Source of the DNA: Chitinivibrio alkaliphilus ACht1
GTDB lineage: Bacteria; Fibrobacterota; Chitinivibrionia; Chitinivibrionales; Chitinivibrionaceae
Direction of reading: 5' to 3'
DNA: 64,000 nt
Assembly: GCF_000474745.1 (NCBI RefSeq)
Contig: NZ_ASJR01000001.1
Coordinates: forward strand, 124,001-188,000
Program-made: the position numbers and the translations under genes
Shown here: positions 15,705-23,977 of the stretch, one piece after another
How positions within the stretch are numbered: the stretch's first letter is position 1
Layout of the letters: the number at the start of each line of letters is the position of its first letter
Notes under the pieces: generated by a model
What the model was told of the DNA's origin: nothing
The model's database searches: none
The model's input: only the letters and a program-made list of their open reading frames with translations

Positions 15705-16469
15705 TCATAGGAAAGATATATCATTGCACCGCGAAGAGCGGAGGGGAAATTCTCTTCGGTATTCTCTAAGCAGAGAAAGAGAAAGGCACGCGCGGACACA
15801 CTCTGTATTTTCGGAACTTTCTTGTAAAATTTCTCCGCGAGGAGAGAGTATCATGCTCTGCCCTCCAAAATGATAGTTTTGCAAAACTCCGTTCTGATTA
15901 GCAGCCACAACATATACTTGATTTTCTATTGCTCGTGCAACGAGAAGACTCCTCCAATGATCAATGCGTTTTGCGGGCCACGCAGCAGATACAAAGAGAA
16001 TATCACCACTGTAAGAAAAGAGGGTTCGTGTAAGCTCGGGGTACCGAATGTCGTAACAGAGGTGATACCCATATACCGCAGAAGCAGAGGAGTAAAGAGA
16101 GATGAAATCTCCCTGTCGGAAAAGGCGTTCTTCACCGGGAAATAGATGAGTTTTACGGTATCGAGGAACAATAGACGTCGCTGAAATCTCGAAAATGGTA
16201 TTATAAATACCACCGTTTAGGTGCTCAGCTAATCCAAGAGAAACTACAGTGTTGCTACCGCTCAAAATATCCTGAAGGGGAGCAAAAACAGTTTGGCGAC
16301 AATACGGTTTAACCTGGTCTGCCTGTAGGGTATACCCCGTGTCACTCAATTCAGGGAAAAGTATGAAATCATGGGCTCGTTCTTGTGTAACAATTTCAAC
16401 GATACGAGAAATATTTTCCTCTATTCGCCCAGGGATAGGGGAAAAGGATACCGCACAAACACGCATCAT
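15705..16469 (-). CDS. Carbon-nitrogen hydrolase (nitrilase superfamily)
   Basis: 254 aa. The catalytic triad is visible: Glu40 in ILFPELSDTGY, Lys106 in YRKTHLFPGE and Cys138 in YHLCYDIRYPEL. The length and the KTHLF / CYDIRYPE pattern fit omega-amidase or Nit2/YafV-like members, which hydrolyse alpha-ketoglutaramate or related amides as metabolite repair; substrate is not certain. The first ATG overlaps the stop of the HDOD gene (TAATG), indicating coupling. Confidence 0.88.
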   Translation of the reverse strand: MMRVCAVSFSPIPGRIEENISRIVEIVTQERAHDFILFPELSDTGYTLQADQVKPYCRQTVFAPLQDILSGSNTVVSLGLAEHLNGGIYNTIFEISATSIVPRYRKTHLFPGEERLFRQGDFISLYSSASAVYGYHLCYDIRYPELTRTLFSYSGDILFVSAAWPAKRIDHWRSLLVARAIENQVYVVAANQNGVLQNYHFGGQSMILSPRGEILQESSENTECVRACLSLSLLREYRREFPLRSSRCNDISFL

Positions 16470-18211
16470 TAGCTCTCCTGATTACTCAAAATTTCTTCAA
16501 AAACTGGATCTACTAATCGGATATCACAGGATACATCGAAGTAATACAAAAGTGAATCCGGCTCTTGTTCTTTGGGAGGTGATTTGCAGAAAACAAAGAC
16601 TGGTAACTCTGTGGAATACCTATCCTGAAATCGTTTACGGCGTTTCTCAATAGAGGCATGATCTGAAGACTGATACTCACCAGTAGTACAGTAGATACAG
16701 AGATGTTCTATACACTCAGCATCCTCAAGGTCATCGGTCGAGTGTAAGATATTCAGCAGTATCCCACGGGAGTGCAGATACGGAAAAATAGGGAAGTATG
16801 CCTCCGTTGTCGCAGAACAAACAGAAACCGTTATATCTGATTGTACTGCGGGTGATTTGGTAATCTTTGTATTAAAAAATGAACTATAGAGGGATATTTT
16901 ACGTTGCACCTCATCAAAAAACTCTTTCCCCAATGCCTGAGGAGAAAACCGAATATACGATAAAAGATCGTGAGGGAGGGGAGTAGTGAAGTGGTCACAC
17001 TCACTTCCAAACCCACACGCCTTTGCAAGTTTTTCTGCCACAAAGAGAAGTACAGCAAAGGCTTGCTCTTCTGTAAGTTCCCCAGGTTTTGCCTCCCAAA
17101 GCGATGCATTATCCGCAAATTCTTTGTTCACCGTCACAGAGAGAGGGATTCCTTCAGTAATATCTGAGGGGAACTTCCACTGTTCAAAGAGTTTTTTGGT
17201 AATATCTAAATGGGTTATTAAGGTAAGGCGTCGTTCACTGTCCCAAAAAAGCCCCATCTTTTTTGAGGTCTCTTTTAGGTAGGTAATAAAGAGATCTGGA
17301 AAGCATTCATCAAGAAGTATAATACCAAAGCTGTGGAGCAAGCCAGCAAGAAATGCTTCTGACTTGTCAAGATGAGCCATTTTTTTTGCAAGCATGCTGG
17401 TTAATATTCCCATGCTAATACAATAGATCCAATATTTCTTACGATCAAACCCAAGGGAATTGGCATCACTTGATAAGGATTTCATAACTTGGATAGACAT
17501 GGCGATGTTCTTGGTTTCGGAAAAACCGATTCGTACAATCGCATCTTTAATACTATTAATCCGCTGATTATTTCGATTTGCAAAAAAAACCGTATTAGCC
17601 ATTTTAAGAATATTACTGGCAATTACAGGATCTGCCTCAATCACTTTTGAAAGATCTGCCGCACCACTTTGGGGGTCATTCGATATTTTTAACACGCGCA
17701 TCACCGTGAAGGGGAATGCCATGATAGTATTAATTTCTTCTAGCATACGGCTAATCTTTTTTGTTGGCAATACTTTTTTATCCAAGAGCATGTCAAGATA
17801 GGATGATTCTTCCTTTCCTTCTTTTTTCCACACCAGTTTTTCTGAATTATTCTGTTGGAAAAAATTTTCTATGTACTTCATGGCAAGGGAAAATCGTATG
17901 GGGGTTAACAAATATTGCTGTACACCATTTTGGTGTAATGCGCCTACTTCAGGATCAGACAACTTTTTTCCATAGCCAATAATTAAAGTTTTTAGATTTT
18001 TAATATTACTGATATTTTTACAAAAATTGATGTGATCGTGGTAGTATCGGGGAAAACGAATCAGAACAATATCAGGTTTAAATTGAACCGCATTGATGTA
18101 GGAGCTTCGGTCCGGCTCTGCGTCAACGGTATCAAAACCGAGTTGCTCAAAGGCCATTAGAAGAATCCGTTTTTCGCGCTCATTATCAGATATTATAAGA
18201 ATGGATGGCAT
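16469..18211 (-). CDS. HDOD-domain signalling protein with degenerate receiver domain
   Basis: 580 aa. Residues ~1-120 fold like a response-regulator receiver, but the phosphoacceptor Asp is replaced (VLIRFP, Arg52) and the conserved Lys appears to be Thr in LLTPI, so it cannot be phosphorylated normally. Residues ~165-370 form an HDOD domain (INTIMAFPFTVMRVLKI..., IEADPVIASNILKMAN, NSIKDAIVRIGF), an HD-GYP-related, usually non-catalytic, signalling module. The ~200-aa C-terminus is not recognised. HDOD proteins often act in motility and c-di-GMP-linked control; the actual role here is unknown. First gene of a run with the nitrilase. Confidence 0.85.
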   Translation of the reverse strand: MPSILIISDNEREKRILLMAFEQLGFDTVDAEPDRSSYINAVQFKPDIVLIRFPRYYHDHINFCKNISNIKNLKTLIIGYGKKLSDPEVGALHQNGVQQYLLTPIRFSLAMKYIENFFQQNNSEKLVWKKEGKEESSYLDMLLDKKVLPTKKISRMLEEINTIMAFPFTVMRVLKISNDPQSGAADLSKVIEADPVIASNILKMANTVFFANRNNQRINSIKDAIVRIGFSETKNIAMSIQVMKSLSSDANSLGFDRKKYWIYCISMGILTSMLAKKMAHLDKSEAFLAGLLHSFGIILLDECFPDLFITYLKETSKKMGLFWDSERRLTLITHLDITKKLFEQWKFPSDITEGIPLSVTVNKEFADNASLWEAKPGELTEEQAFAVLLFVAEKLAKACGFGSECDHFTTPLPHDLLSYIRFSPQALGKEFFDEVQRKISLYSSFFNTKITKSPAVQSDITVSVCSATTEAYFPIFPYLHSRGILLNILHSTDDLEDAECIEHLCIYCTTGEYQSSDHASIEKRRKRFQDRYSTELPVFVFCKSPPKEQEPDSLLYYFDVSCDIRLVDPVFEEILSNQES

Positions 18212-18304: not shown

Positions 18305-18700
18305 TTACAGTAATAACAAGGAACTTCGCACAATATCAGCACCAAGGAGCAGTTCAAAGATTGATTCAATTGTAATGAGTGCGGGATTATTCAGCACATT
18401 TTTTTTAAAGCGCATGGAGATAATATAAATTCCAAGAAATATGTAACCATAGATGTTGAATCGTTCGACCGGAGAAAAAATTAAAAGCGGAAGAAGGGCC
18501 AACTGCGAAGAAGAAAAAAGAAGATATCTTTTCTCAAGAGGCGTCAAGGTCTGGACAATTTTTTCTTTCTCCGCATCTTCTTCCTGCTCTTCCATACGGC
18601 TCATTTTATTTGCAAAGGCGGATATTTTGGCAGGAAAAGTAATTACAATAGCTGAGGAGATCATTGAAAAAATACTAAAAAGTATCAGTAGATATAACAT
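18305..18700 (-). CDS. Small integral membrane protein of unknown function
   Basis: 131 aa from ATG 18700, chosen because GGGGGAG lies directly upstream; the frame remains open further back into purD but without an RBS. Hydrophobic segments at ~1-24, ~63-80 and ~84-98 and a hydrophobic C-terminus flank a charged stretch rich in Glu (EEQEEDAEKEK). No family recognised. It starts 16 nt after the purD stop, as the last gene of the kinase/degenerate-GGDEF/purD operon. Confidence 0.7.
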   Translation of the reverse strand: MLYLLILFSIFSMISSAIVITFPAKISAFANKMSRMEEQEEDAEKEKIVQTLTPLEKRYLLFSSSQLALLPLLIFSPVERFNIYGYIFLGIYIISMRFKKNVLNNPALITIESIFELLLGADIVRSSLLLL

Positions 18701-18716
18701 AATCTCCCCCTTTATC

Positions 18717-19997
18717 CTACAATGCTCGATGTCCAATGTCTGTACGATACTGCATGCCAGAAAACTTAATTTCAGAAACCCCTGCATAGGCACGATCTAC
18801 TGCTTCTTGAAGCGTTTTGCCCGTGCCTGTGACGGTTAATACGCGCCCTCCGTTTGTGATAAATCGTCCTTCCGCATCGGTGGTTATTCCTGCAAAATAG
18901 ACCTGGACATTATCCTGTGCATTCGCTCTTTCAATTCCATCGATAACCTGCCCTGGATCAGAGCTTTCCGGGTACCCCTTGGAAGCAACTACAACGGTAG
19001 CACAATACTCTGCACGTATGGAAAAAGAGACCTCTTCTACCCCACCAGTGGCGGCGGTATGAAAAAGGGTATACCAGTCGCAGTCTACAAGAGGAAGTAC
19101 CGCTTCTGTTTCGGGATCTCCAAAGCGACAGTTATACTCAACCACCTGTGGACCATCTTCTGTAAGCATCAGACCAACATATAGTAACCCAGTGTAGGGA
19201 CAACCTTCTGCAGTCATAGCTGAAAGTGTTGGTGCAATGATCTTTTTTTCTATATCAGCAAGCATATCCGAAGAGATTAGCTCTGCCGGGGCATAGGCCC
19301 CCATCCCTCCAGTGTTCGGCCCTGTATCGCCATCAAATATGCGCTTATGATCTTGCGACACAGGAAGGATCTTATAAGAATCACCATCTGTTATCACAAA
19401 TACTGATGCTTCTTCACCATACATCATATCTTCTATAACCACTGTTTCACCGGCAGAACCAAAGGCGTTTGTATCAAAAACCACCGTGAGGGCCTGCTCA
19501 ATCTCTTCCATGGTATCACAAACCATGGCCCCCTTTCCCGCTGCAAGGCCACTTACTTTTACTACGAGAGGAGCCCCTTTTTTTTGTACATACGAAAGAG
19601 CGCTTTGTTTATCGGAAAAAGCCTTCCAGGGTGCGGTGGGGATATGGTATTTTTCCATGAGCTCCTTGGAGAACAACTTGCTCCCCTCAAGACGTGCAGC
19701 TGCTTTAGAAGGACCAAATACAGGGATATTTTTACCGACAAAAAGATCTTTGATCCCCTCAACCAAGGGTTGTTCTGGGCCGATTATTGCGAGACCTATT
19801 CCTTTTTTTTGCGACCACTCTGCAAGTTCCTCCCAGTTTCGAACCTCCTTTGGTACGGCCAAAGCTCCTTCACGCACCGCCCCTTCATTACGAGGATAAA
19901 TATAGACATCAGGTGCTGTATCTGATTTAAGAAGTGCTGTGCAGAGCGCATGCTCCCTGCCACCATTGCCAACAACAAGAACAGAGGCTGTATTCAT
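18717..19997 (-). CDS. purD: Phosphoribosylamine-glycine ligase (GAR synthetase)
   Basis: 426 aa. ATP-grasp enzyme that joins glycine to phosphoribosylamine, the second step of purine synthesis. Marks: N-terminal VLVVGNGGREHAL, IGPEQPLV, KVSGLAAGKGAMV, VIEDMMYGEEASVF, DGDTGPNTGGMGAYAP and VVEYNCRFGDPETE. Its ATG overlaps the stop of the upstream regulatory gene (TAATG), so its translation is probably coupled to that gene, which is unusual for purD. Confidence 0.97.
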   Translation of the reverse strand: MNTASVLVVGNGGREHALCTALLKSDTAPDVYIYPRNEGAVREGALAVPKEVRNWEELAEWSQKKGIGLAIIGPEQPLVEGIKDLFVGKNIPVFGPSKAAARLEGSKLFSKELMEKYHIPTAPWKAFSDKQSALSYVQKKGAPLVVKVSGLAAGKGAMVCDTMEEIEQALTVVFDTNAFGSAGETVVIEDMMYGEEASVFVITDGDSYKILPVSQDHKRIFDGDTGPNTGGMGAYAPAELISSDMLADIEKKIIAPTLSAMTAEGCPYTGLLYVGLMLTEDGPQVVEYNCRFGDPETEAVLPLVDCDWYTLFHTAATGGVEEVSFSIRAEYCATVVVASKGYPESSDPGQVIDGIERANAQDNVQVYFAGITTDAEGRFITNGGRVLTVTGTGKTLQEAVDRAYAGVSEIKFSGMQYRTDIGHRAL

Positions 19998-21895
19998 TAT
20001 GTCTCCTTACTACTCAAATGATCTCGAAGCAATTGTTTCATAAGCATTTCATACTCAATATTTTGTTCTACCTGTTCGGCATCACACGAAATACTTGATA
20101 CAATATATGTTTTTCCACGTAAGGCCTCCGACTTGATTCGTTCGTACACAGTATAAAGACTGCGTGAATCAGTCATGGGGAGTATAAACAGGGTAATCTC
20201 CTTATTTCGTACCATTATCCGTCCAAGAATATCTAAGGTACGGAGACGGTCGCGTAGTTCCTCCACCAGCTGTTGTGCAGAAACAACTTCCGCATGATCG
20301 GAAACCGCAATAATTGAAAAAGGATGAGCATATCGTTGATACTCATCGATGTAACGCTTAATAAAAAAAATGGTGAGCCGGGGAGAAAGAAGATCGGGCT
20401 GTTGTGACATGGCGGAAGGCTTGCTTTGTGCCCCAACCTTTTGGAGAGCTTTCTCTACTTCTTCAACACTCATATTCCACTTCTGAGCATAGGTGGCTAT
20501 TCCTTTTTTATACCGCTCTACATCTTGGGTTTTATCAAGGACCATGAGAAGTTTCTCAGAAAGATCTTCAACGCTCATGGAATCGGTTTGTGAAATGGTT
20601 GAAACAAGCCACTCCTCACGCATTTTTCTCAGAGTTTCAGGATATCGCTTTTTCATTTTTTCAGCCACACTCGAATAGAGCTTTGTGTCGTGTATATCAT
20701 TCTTCAACTGACCCAGAAGACGATTTTCTATAGTAGATACAACCGTATCAAGAGAGCCGGGGCCATCTTTTGGGGATACCTCTTGCGCAACCATTTTCTC
20801 ACCAGCTGCTTCAATGATATTTGCAATATATTCCGAAAGATGTTCTGAGTTGGTCATTGAGTCAAGCTCTGCTGATTGCACAAGAAGCTTCAGAGATTCC
20901 TCAGGATTTTGCGCAATTGCTTGTGCTAACTCATCTCGGTCAACACCAAATTCTTCAGCCGTTTTAAACAACTCCTCAGCCCCCTGTTCACCACGGGTAT
21001 GACTCTCAATGTGTTCAAGCACAGAGGCATAAAAGGTTGGTGAAATATCATCCTGAGAAAGTTCGTTTTTTAAGAACGGAACCAATCGCTTAACCTCTGT
21101 TGCCGATGATGTCAAACGCTTTAGAAGAAAGGCCACCTGTTGTGGTGTATTGCTACCACTGCGATATTCATCACGCAGTAATTGAGCCATGGTTTGTAGG
21201 GTCTGCTTTTCTTGTGGAGTTAGGGGCTCATCTTTAAGCGTGTTTATTCCGGAAATCGCCTGCTCTTCCTGCTGCTTTCGTGCCGACATCTCCACAATAT
21301 GGCTGAAGGCAGAATCTTCTTCTTGAGATGAAAGAGGGGGCTCCGACGCAGAATTAGGTACGGTATTCACTTGGGTAAAAAGAGAGTTTGCACCGAGGAT
21401 AAACTGTTTTTCGAGTTCCGCATCATCAATGCCCTGAGAAGCCCCCTCCTCTACCACTGCTTGGTCTGCCCGTACTTCTTGTAGTGTCACATAATTAATA
21501 AGCATTGAAGAAATGTGTGCTTGTTCTAAAAGCGTAATCAAGTGGTTTGCCTCTTGGCCTTCCAAAACGGCAGTTTGATATAGTTTACCAAAATAGGCAA
21601 CCTGCTTTGCCGTAACTCCCCTGCAGAATGAAAGCGACTCAATATGACATTTCGTAAACTGCTGTATTGTCCGTTTAGTATTTAAGTGTGAATCAACACA
21701 GACGCGATTAATATAAAAGGACTCCCCATTCTTAAGCAGGGTCACGGTTTCAGACACGTCACTACTGTTTATTAATTCAGCAACTTCAGTAGCGGCTTTC
21801 ATTAAAGACGGATGTTCCGCACCAAAAAGGACGAGATTATTAAAGAGCAGATTGATTTTTACTGCCACCTGTATTGAAAACTGCTCCATCTCCAT
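19997..21895 (-). CDS. Signalling-type protein with degenerate GGDEF-like C-terminal domain
   Basis: 632 aa, not clearly named. The N-terminal ~150 residues (FNNLVLFGAEHPSLMKAA..., SFCRGVTAKQVAYFGKL) look like the helical start seen in some HEAT-repeat and HD-GYP signalling proteins. The middle (~180-480) is helical, acidic and repetitive in character. The last ~130 residues resemble a diguanylate cyclase fold (FFIKRYIDEYQRYAHPFSIIA, RTLDILGRIMVRNKEITLFILPMTD), but the GGDEF active-site loop is replaced by RNKEI, so cyclase activity is not expected. Overlaps the kinase stop and the purD start by one base each. A sensor, scaffold or kinase-substrate role is inference. Confidence 0.7.
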   Translation of the reverse strand: MEMEQFSIQVAVKINLLFNNLVLFGAEHPSLMKAATEVAELINSSDVSETVTLLKNGESFYINRVCVDSHLNTKRTIQQFTKCHIESLSFCRGVTAKQVAYFGKLYQTAVLEGQEANHLITLLEQAHISSMLINYVTLQEVRADQAVVEEGASQGIDDAELEKQFILGANSLFTQVNTVPNSASEPPLSSQEEDSAFSHIVEMSARKQQEEQAISGINTLKDEPLTPQEKQTLQTMAQLLRDEYRSGSNTPQQVAFLLKRLTSSATEVKRLVPFLKNELSQDDISPTFYASVLEHIESHTRGEQGAEELFKTAEEFGVDRDELAQAIAQNPEESLKLLVQSAELDSMTNSEHLSEYIANIIEAAGEKMVAQEVSPKDGPGSLDTVVSTIENRLLGQLKNDIHDTKLYSSVAEKMKKRYPETLRKMREEWLVSTISQTDSMSVEDLSEKLLMVLDKTQDVERYKKGIATYAQKWNMSVEEVEKALQKVGAQSKPSAMSQQPDLLSPRLTIFFIKRYIDEYQRYAHPFSIIAVSDHAEVVSAQQLVEELRDRLRTLDILGRIMVRNKEITLFILPMTDSRSLYTVYERIKSEALRGKTYIVSSISCDAEQVEQNIEYEMLMKQLLRDHLSSKET

Positions 21896-22791
21896 TAGGC
21901 GTGCTCAGAAAAAGGCGTTAAAAGTTGACAGAACTGATCAGAAGATTCAATTCTCTGGTCAGGGTCAGCGGCAATCGCTTTCAAGAGAACACCTTCGAGT
22001 TCTTTGGGTATATCAGTTCGTAACCGAGACAAATGGGGATAAATAAAACTGTCTGGTGACGCTATTTTGCATCGAACCACCTCTTCCGGAGATTTGAGTT
22101 GCGTTGGTATCAGCCCAAGAAGTAAGTAGACAAGAGTCATGGCAGTACTGTAAATATCACTTCGATGATCAACATCACCACCCCGCGCCTGTTCCGGAGA
22201 AAGATAGAGTGGGCTTCCCACAATAATTGATTCGTGCATACTGTCAACAAGCCCCGGTGCTTTGGCGATACCGAAATCAACAACAAAAAGACGATCGTGC
22301 TTTTTCTCAATAATAATATTTGCCGGTTTTATATCTCGATGAACCACGAACTCTTCGTGGGCATAGGAGAGAGCTTTCAGAACGTCACAGATGAGGGCTA
22401 CAGCTCTTGAAACGGGAATAAAGCGCTTTTGTTTTATAGGATGACGCTTTCTTTTCTGCACCATGGAAACCAGATTGTCCCCTTCAACTAAGTGCATGAC
22501 TTGGTAATAAAACTCATCTTCCTCCCCCATTTTATATATGGGAATGATATTGGGATGAGTAAGCCCCGCAACAATTTGTGCTTCCATGGAGAAACTATCA
22601 ATTTCAGATTGCCGTGTCTTAATTTTTGGGAGTATTTTGACAGCCACCCGGCGTTTCAAATCTTCCTGAAAGCCACTAAACACCACCCCTTTTCCACCAG
22701 AACCAATAACATCTAAGAGGGTTATCGTGTCAAGTTTTCTGCCGATAAAATCGGTGTAATCAATACTGATATAATCAAATATAGACTTCAT
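21895..22791 (-). CDS. Hanks-type Ser/Thr protein kinase, soluble
   Basis: 298 aa, a kinase domain with nothing else: no membrane helix and no PASTA repeats. All main motifs are intact: glycine loop GSGGKGVV (30-37), Lys52 in VAVKIL, HRDIKPANI with Asp153 and Lys155, DFG at Asp172, and SPEQARG before HRSDIYS. It should be active. Substrates are unknown; the coupled downstream gene product is an obvious candidate. First gene of the operon ending in purD and a small membrane protein. Confidence 0.93.
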   Translation of the reverse strand: MKSIFDYISIDYTDFIGRKLDTITLLDVIGSGGKGVVFSGFQEDLKRRVAVKILPKIKTRQSEIDSFSMEAQIVAGLTHPNIIPIYKMGEEDEFYYQVMHLVEGDNLVSMVQKRKRHPIKQKRFIPVSRAVALICDVLKALSYAHEEFVVHRDIKPANIIIEKKHDRLFVVDFGIAKAPGLVDSMHESIIVGSPLYLSPEQARGGDVDHRSDIYSTAMTLVYLLLGLIPTQLKSPEEVVRCKIASPDSFIYPHLSRLRTDIPKELEGVLLKAIAADPDQRIESSDQFCQLLTPFSEHA

Positions 22792-22906: not shown

Positions 22907-23977
22907 TTAAAAGAGACGACGTGCAATCCACTGCCATATTTCACAACTTTTAGACATAATGGGGGCACCCGTAAAGGGTGACTGAAGTGCACCAATCTCT
23001 TGGTAAAACAGTTCTGGATTGATACTATCTTCGTGCAATCTGATACCCTGTCCATACTGAAAGAGGTCTTTTTCAAGAGCGTCCTGTTCTACAAAATGGG
23101 TCCGCGGAAAGTAAAGTAAGGGTTTTTGTGCCGATAACGCTTCACAGACAAGGGAGTATCCCAATTTTGAGATAATGTAATCACATGAATATGAGTAATC
23201 TTGCAAAGAGTACGCGCCCTTTTGAATGGGGATAAAGTTTGGGGGAACGTCACTACTTGGTGGGTAATACCCCAAAAACGTACAATTTTTAAATGAGGAA
23301 AGAAGCTGATACGAAAGAGTGGAAATTCCATATTTTCCGGTGTATATGAGTATGAGTTTGTGAGAGAATGGGATAGAATATTTCTGCATGAGATGAGTTC
23401 GGATATTTTTTCCAGGACGAAACAAAGAGCATCCTTGTAATGACTCTTCCCCGGAAAAAGTGGAAACTGTCCCCGGCCACAGTTGCACCCAATAGGTGAT
23501 TTGTGAGTAGTCTTCATACAAGAGGTTTAAAAGCCAGCTATATTGTTTATATACAGATACATAAGGAAGAAATATGTCATACCACGTAAAGTTTCCTATG
23601 CAGAAAGAAGGAAGACCGAGACGAAGAGCAATACGGCCGGGAAAAGAAGCTGAATCCGTAATAATTGCTACCGGCGAGAGTTTTTCAATACGACGACACT
23701 CTTGATGAAAGAGTTTTCTGTTTTTTCCTCTTGGCGGGCAGATTTTTCAAGAGTTGCCGTACGATCTATTTTTAGTGCATCAATCTGATGACAACCATAG
23801 TCAAAACTTCTTTGGTAATAGGTAAAGGGACGCTGTATTTCTTCTAAAAAAACGTTTTTCCACCAAAGAAGTTATGTGGACAGGGATGTGCGCAGGTATT
23901 TCATTAATTAAGATACTCTGACGCACCGCATGGCCGTGACCATGACCGGAAATATAAAATACAATGGTGCCCTTCAT
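22907..23977 (-). pseudogene. Glycosyltransferase-like gene broken by two compensating frameshifts
   Basis: A ~356-aa protein can be rebuilt only with two single-base corrections. Segment 1 starts at ATG 23977, overlapping the previous stop (TGATG), and encodes MKGTIVFYISGHGHGHAVRQ, a GT-B type N-terminus, but stops at 23801. Segment 2, in another frame, carries RPFTYYQRSFDYGCHQIDA. Segment 3, back in the first frame and open from within 23721 down to 22907, encodes TDSASFPGRIALRLGLPSF and the C-terminal SCDYIISKLGYSLVCEA typical of MurG-like or arabinokinase-N-terminal-like transferases. Likely sites are A7/T5 at 23846-23859 (one base extra) and T6 at 23721-23726 (one base short). Donor and acceptor sugars unknown. 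Either a real inactive gene or sequencing error. Confidence 0.75.

Follow-up and report, generated by a model that had tools for sequence, protein, structure and literature searches.

A conserved gene pair encoding a soluble Ser/Thr kinase and a degenerate GGDEF protein: a candidate cyclic di-GMP-responsive unit in Fibrobacterota and Wenzhouxiangella-group Gammaproteobacteria

A run of four genes was analyzed in a 64,000-nucleotide stretch of the Chitinivibrio alkaliphilus ACht1 genome (contig NZ_ASJR01000001.1, positions 124,001 to 188,000; this whole stretch is called the window, and coordinates are given within it). The genome assembly comprises 2.59 Mb in 99 contigs and is 96.7% complete. 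An earlier note on this DNA had listed the four genes, and all were confirmed on the minus strand: a Ser/Thr kinase gene (21895-22791; 298 amino acids), a gene for a 632-amino-acid protein that we call the partner (19997-21895), the single-copy purine gene purD (18717-19997), and a gene for a small hydrophobic membrane protein (18305-18700; 131 amino acids from its ATG). The purD product matched TIGR00877 as a PurD equivalog (503 bits, cut-off 288), and neither the 632-residue partner nor the 131-residue membrane protein had a confident family match. The membrane protein ATG has a ribosome site (GGGGGAG), and the longer GTG start in the open reading frame (ORF) list is unlikely. As the note had described, the kinase/partner and partner/purD junctions both read TAATG. 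Its further suggestion, that these overlaps tie purD translation to a signaling pair, did not survive: an exact 1- or 4-base overlap is possible in 8 of the 40 same-strand neighboring pairs of the window (by a crude ORF call), and therefore a TAATG overlap alone says little. Gene overlap was rejected as evidence of coupling.

Next, the distribution of the partner was determined. A single-sequence search detected the 632-residue protein in 32 of 60 relatives, and all 20 genomes outside the order in that set were negative. Profile A4, built from the first two parts of the protein, detected 40 positives among 167 genomes of the phylum: 32 of the 40 genomes that belong to the order Chitinivibrionales, plus 8 from two further families. 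When named genomes were scanned, 17 loci emerged, of which 7 were in contigs whose titles read Wenzhouxiangella, Wenzhouxiangellaceae, or Gammaproteobacteria, and 21 of 200 relatives of one Wenzhouxiangella-group genome carried the partner. Two of these matches lie on contigs of 3.49 and 3.68 Mb; misbinning was therefore ruled out as their cause. Partner loci thus span Fibrobacterota (Chitinivibrionales and two other families) and Wenzhouxiangella-group Gammaproteobacteria, with overall identity to the window partner dropping to about 20% across the family. Carriage on plasmids was rejected, as no match was found in 72,556 plasmid records with one homologue (from locus L043) as the query, and a contig scan with the window partner as the sole query led nowhere.

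To determine how often a kinase accompanies the partner, 64 partner genes were examined with their flanks; L108 (in genome G036) had no partner match and lies outside this set. Three loci (L033, L041, and L055), at which a contig end cuts the upstream side, were excluded from the adjacency count. An immediately neighboring kinase was present at 46 of the 61 assessable loci. It lay directly upstream on the same strand at 39 of the 61 (20 in Fibrobacterota and 19 in the Wenzhouxiangella group), with gaps of −21 to +145 bp, counted to where the profile match begins, and a 4-base overlap the commonest arrangement. At 7 loci (L101-L107, in families f10 and f13) the adjacent kinase was divergent, with a gap of ∼50 to 125 bp at the f10 loci for which ORFs were listed (L101, L103, and L105). 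Four f10 loci (L101, L103, L105, and L106) also have an ∼480-residue response regulator downstream of the partner, beside the divergent kinase; that of L101 is of the NtrC type, a sigma-54 activator by Pfam, and the other three were judged by a similar start only.

The kinases of these pairs (45 module kinases) grouped in a single clade that excluded 28 other kinases encoded by the same genomes; two duplicates of module kinases (L152 and L153) had been kept out of the 28. An HP..KR motif before the catalytic loop occurred in 43 of the 45 and in none of the 28, and HQD replaced HRD in 34 module kinases and in none of the others; the window kinase keeps HRD. A clade profile separated the groups cleanly, with members at 303 bits or more and the next best sequence at 247, and clade membership was called by this gap. 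The window kinase itself matched PF00069 with an E value of 9.7e-43 (146.9 bits, cut-off 31.7) and scored 216.8 bits against the PknB/PASTA equivalog NF033483, below the cut-off of 450. It is soluble, consists of a kinase domain only, and has all of the catalytic residues of a Hanks-type kinase (K52, E70, the HRD residue D153, N158, and the DFG residue D172); the earlier note had likewise called it soluble and catalytically complete.

The association also extends beyond adjacency. Among genomes of the order, a clade kinase was present in 28 of 32 with the partner and in 0 of 8 without it (Fisher P = 6e-6, uncorrected for kinship). At a completeness of at least 90%, the counts were 20 of 21 and 0 of 5, respectively. 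This co-occurrence holds in genomes in which the two genes are unlinked. Three of the four partner-positive genomes lacking a clade kinase are G003 and G034, which are 69 and 68% complete, and G035, which has a kinase fragment at a contig end. Since three partner-negative genomes (G024, G030, and G036) have same-genus relatives that carry the partner, joint loss of kinase and partner probably happened more than once. Tree distances of kinase and partner correlated with r = 0.89 overall, 0.86 for 26 Fibrobacterota loci, and 0.95 for 19 Wenzhouxiangella-group loci; this set omits L033, L038, L041, L055, and L060, although a kinase is present at two of these five (L038 and L060). The kinase and the 632-residue protein are a conserved unit.

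To gain insight into the partner, its domains were modeled. The protein comprises an N-terminal domain, a helical middle, and a C-terminal degenerate GGDEF domain. The N-terminal domain (residues 1 to 148; 21452-21895, minus strand) carries a YG..HP-type motif and, folded alone, gave a predicted local distance difference test score (pLDDT) of 92.6 and a predicted template modeling score (pTM) of 0.84. Candidate solved relatives of this domain were rejected (best Foldseek E value, 0.14; best VIA Z score, 4.6, with a root mean square deviation [rmsd] of 7.5 over 96 aligned residues; profile E values of at least 0.5), although absence from structure match lists is no proof of a new fold. In 40 genomes of the order, all matches to the domain were in genes of the partner family, one of them a contig-end fragment. 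Partner length varies: short forms (L051:7441-8418, L064:5707-6603, L080, and L081) keep the N-terminal and degenerate GGDEF domains and have lost most or all of the helical middle, and long forms of 929 to 1,117 residues occur at L055, L061, and L063.

Structure prediction of the C-terminal domain (residues 498 to 632; 19997-20404, minus strand), a step that the earlier note had suggested, gave a GGDEF fold. The model matched PleD bound to cyclic di-GMP (c-di-GMP) (2v0n) with a Z score of 15.6 and an rmsd of 2.4 Å over 131 residues at 18% identity. The family profile likewise matched solved cyclases in the PDB, the best being 3ign, a diguanylate cyclase with c-di-GMP (E value, 8e-9). In that alignment, the family RdlD falls on the cyclase RxxD, and nonmotif residues stand where cyclases have GG(D/E)EF. 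This motif is lost at the aligned place in the family alignments, and the domain does not qualify as an active diguanylate cyclase; two GGDE strings found by pattern in the 64 open frames (L116 and L102) are both far before the C-terminal domain. NCBIfam searches with 18 members returned GGDEF-type matches in a few, plus weak unrelated ones. Both structure and profile bear out the note's description of a cyclase-like fold without the GGDEF motif.

Although the catalytic motif is gone, the predicted c-di-GMP inhibitory site (I-site), RxxD, is not. In the window partner it is R552-T-L-D555 (20231-20242, minus strand), and it is kept in 62 of 63 members; these counts cover 63 of the 64 members, with L124 ending before the C-terminal domain. 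A possible third c-di-GMP-binding arginine, R586 (20138-20140, minus strand), lies 31 residues past D555. This position is Arg in 53 and Lys in 9 of the 63 members, its equivalence to the PelD arginine being judged by spacing alone. Residues R363, D366, and R395 of Bacillus cereus PelD, corresponding to R367, D370, and R402 of Pseudomonas aeruginosa PelD, were needed for c-di-GMP binding, and the spacing from the Asp to the third Arg is 29 residues in B. cereus and 32 in P. aeruginosa (PMC7112168). Eight genomes tested encode 6 to 47 GGDEF proteins each (E value up to 1e-15), with 11 in the window genome, in which no EAL protein was found at E values up to 1e-10.

We propose that the kinase and the partner would act as a two-protein signaling unit. 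Because the kinase lacks a sensor domain and no output domain is recognizable in the partner, they look like the two halves of one split sensor kinase. The partner C-terminal domain would be a dead diguanylate cyclase with an intact I-site, where, in the manner of PelD, it most likely binds c-di-GMP; the sequence evidence on the partner points to this ligand and not to purines. Binding would alter the oligomeric state of the partner or its contact with the kinase, and either change would switch phosphorylation of the partner, of other targets, or of both. Alternatively for this step, the partner may be a substrate of the kinase. The parts of this proposal differ in strength. Pairing, co-occurrence, the single kinase clade, the GGDEF fold, the lost catalytic motif, and the retained RxxD are observations, and the ligand and the mode of regulation are interpretation. 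That the two proteins physically interact is quite probable, and c-di-GMP binding by the partner is nearly as probable. The overall reading, a split unit whose PelD-like c-di-GMP receptor either governs a soluble Hanks-type kinase or is its phosphorylation target, is modestly favored, and for control of the kinase by c-di-GMP we put the chances as even. The most complete statement is that, in both Fibrobacterota and Wenzhouxiangella-group Gammaproteobacteria, c-di-GMP controls a soluble eukaryote-like Ser/Thr kinase in trans via a dedicated receptor whose N-terminal domain is undescribed, the two genes being retained as a unit; it falls slightly short of even and is offered tentatively.

Several observations weigh against this proposal. 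There was no adjacent kinase at 15 of the 61 loci (L034, L035, L042, L051, L053, L054, L056-L060, L062, L100, L109, and L110); at L060 a kinase is present with one gene in between, some kinase-less loci hold an extra partner copy in a genome where another copy is paired (G009 and G014), and in most genus g6 genomes the kinase is elsewhere in the genome. In G002, the fourth partner-positive genome without a clade kinase, the partner is short and Pkinase matched nothing anywhere at E values up to 1e-10. The single member without RxxD, L062, has Leu in place of the I-site Arg, and no kinase lies beside it. Vertical descent alone would give part of the correlation between kinase and partner distances. 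Pfam PelD_GGDEF matched weakly, in 10 of 18 members at E values up to 0.1 (best, 7e-4), and the window partner itself was below its reach. The AlphaFold2 model of the full-length partner had a mean pLDDT of 69.8 and a pTM of only 0.30; therefore, single domains are usable and the domain arrangement is not. On the other side, c-di-GMP-related neighbors add weak support to the proposal, but they were seen at few loci, could be due to chance, and are given little weight. The gene run that contains the partner also encodes a GGDEF protein with RDTDIPIRYGGDEF in G001 and G003; in G019, a response-regulator GGDEF gene overlaps the partner gene by 4 bases; and at the three loci with long partners (L055, L061, and L063), a T2SSE ATPase with an MshEN domain, described as a c-di-GMP receptor (PMC5013675), directly follows.

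Apart from these points, two kinase-less loci of family f6 (L034 and L035) have a conserved ∼245-residue protein directly upstream of the partner, without a Pfam match in the L035 copy, and a convergent gene downstream, which in L035 encodes an FHA-domain protein.

The alternative that survives best is that the partner is a scaffold or kinase substrate whose GGDEF domain serves only for protein-protein contacts, with no nucleotide bound. The missing active-site motif in the aligned members, the long helical middle, and the well-conserved N-terminal domain would all fit, but a scaffold need not keep RxxD in all but one member across two phyla at ∼20% identity to the window protein, and we consider this explanation unlikely. 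Less likely again is that the degenerate domain binds another ligand that controls the kinase, such as GTP, guanosine tetraphosphate (ppGpp), or a different cyclic dinucleotide. The structural matches do include two PDB entries in which PleD is bound to ppGpp/pppGpp; however, the conserved residues are those of a c-di-GMP I-site, and each of the eight genomes tested encodes several GGDEF proteins.

A third alternative, that the pair regulates purine synthesis by controlling PurD, is very improbable. It draws on the overlap of purD with the partner gene, which is 1 base in the window and 4 bases in G001 and G003. A purD match was present in 38 of 41 genomes, with one copy in nearly all (two are split over contigs), but it lay beside the partner in only 3 of the 38 (G000, G001, and G003, from genera g1 and g2 of one family), and all other partner loci examined have no purD beside the pair. 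In g3, a sister genus within this family, purD lies elsewhere, beside sua5 (L155 and L156); in some other relatives purD is beside purE and/or sua5 (e.g., L163, L165, and L167), and others differ. We therefore rejected purD as part of the conserved unit. Among partner loci, the membrane protein gene occurs only in the three with purD; therefore, both genes are most likely passengers that came to lie next to the pair a single time, in one family. Thus, of the two explanations offered by the earlier note, a link between protein phosphorylation and purine synthesis finds no support beyond one family, and for purD and the membrane protein simple operon capture is the fitting one. The association of kinase and partner is real and much stronger than could be told from this sequence alone. 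The comparison of gene order in relatives that it had called for divides in the same way. PurD as a kinase target is possible, without support here. The weakest alternative, that the genes are functionally unrelated neighbors in a long operon, appeals to the close packing common in the window, but the same pair in two phyla, with the kinase upstream or divergent, and co-occurrence when unlinked make it very unlikely.

Farther along the minus-strand run, downstream of the membrane protein gene, lie an HDOD protein gene (16469-18211) and a nitrilase-family gene (15705-16469), which likewise overlap by one base. The first ∼120 residues of the HDOD protein are receiver-like (weak NCBIfam response-regulator matches and no Pfam match), and by eye Arg appears to stand after the third strand, at the place where the phospho-acceptor Asp is normally found; this part is therefore probably a pseudo-receiver. 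In genus g2, an intact GGDEF protein with a weak CheX match in front is encoded between the membrane protein and HDOD genes (L031:5501-6514 and L041:2390-3415), and this gene is absent at the corresponding place in the window. Upstream of the kinase on the same strand, ORF 22907-23521 resembles, by eye, the C-terminal half of a MurG-like glycosyltransferase. A promoter scan gave 19 sites, with 19.1 expected from shuffles, i.e., no better than chance; terminator-like sites numbered 14, with 8.1 in shuffles, and no use was made of them.

To our knowledge, most bacterial Hanks-type kinases have no known input. If the proposed role of c-di-GMP is correct, the pair would wire the c-di-GMP network directly to Ser/Thr phosphorylation and show that both can be one pathway. 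It would also be a purifiable two-protein system that a single ligand, the kinase, and a pair of point mutants would suffice to test. In addition, the partner represents a family that no curated model matched with confidence, and no solved-structure match was found for its N-terminal domain.

Known systems offer partial precedents. The PelD proteins of P. aeruginosa and B. cereus similarly have a GGDEF fold without the catalytic motif and a retained RxxD, and R586 of the partner may correspond, by its spacing, to their further Arg ∼30 residues downstream; unlike PelD, the partner has a kinase beside it, a different N-terminal domain, and a helical middle. Xu et al. (2016) reportedly described a c-di-GMP-binding adaptor that interacts with a histidine kinase, such that a receptor acts in trans on a kinase, as proposed here for a Ser/Thr kinase. 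The c-di-GMP-linked kinases met in the literature were histidine kinases or a PilZ fusion. SgmT of Myxococcus xanthus is a histidine kinase that carries, at its C terminus, a degenerate GGDEF domain as c-di-GMP receptor (PMC4877007), in which kinase output is likewise joined to degenerate GGDEF input, although within one polypeptide rather than two genes and with a histidine kinase rather than a Ser/Thr kinase. Pkn1 of M. xanthus joins a Ser/Thr kinase to a c-di-GMP-type receptor domain, but as a fusion with PilZ rather than as separate genes with GGDEF; its PilZ domain is predicted not to bind c-di-GMP, and binding is unstudied according to that source (PMC8316039). Within the accessible text of the open-access literature searched, no Ser/Thr kinase with a degenerate-GGDEF partner was described, and no paper on Chitinivibrionales with a protein kinase was found there. 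As far as these sources go, kinases with a c-di-GMP-type receptor are known, and what would be new here is that such a unit is split over two genes and that its kinase is a Ser/Thr kinase.

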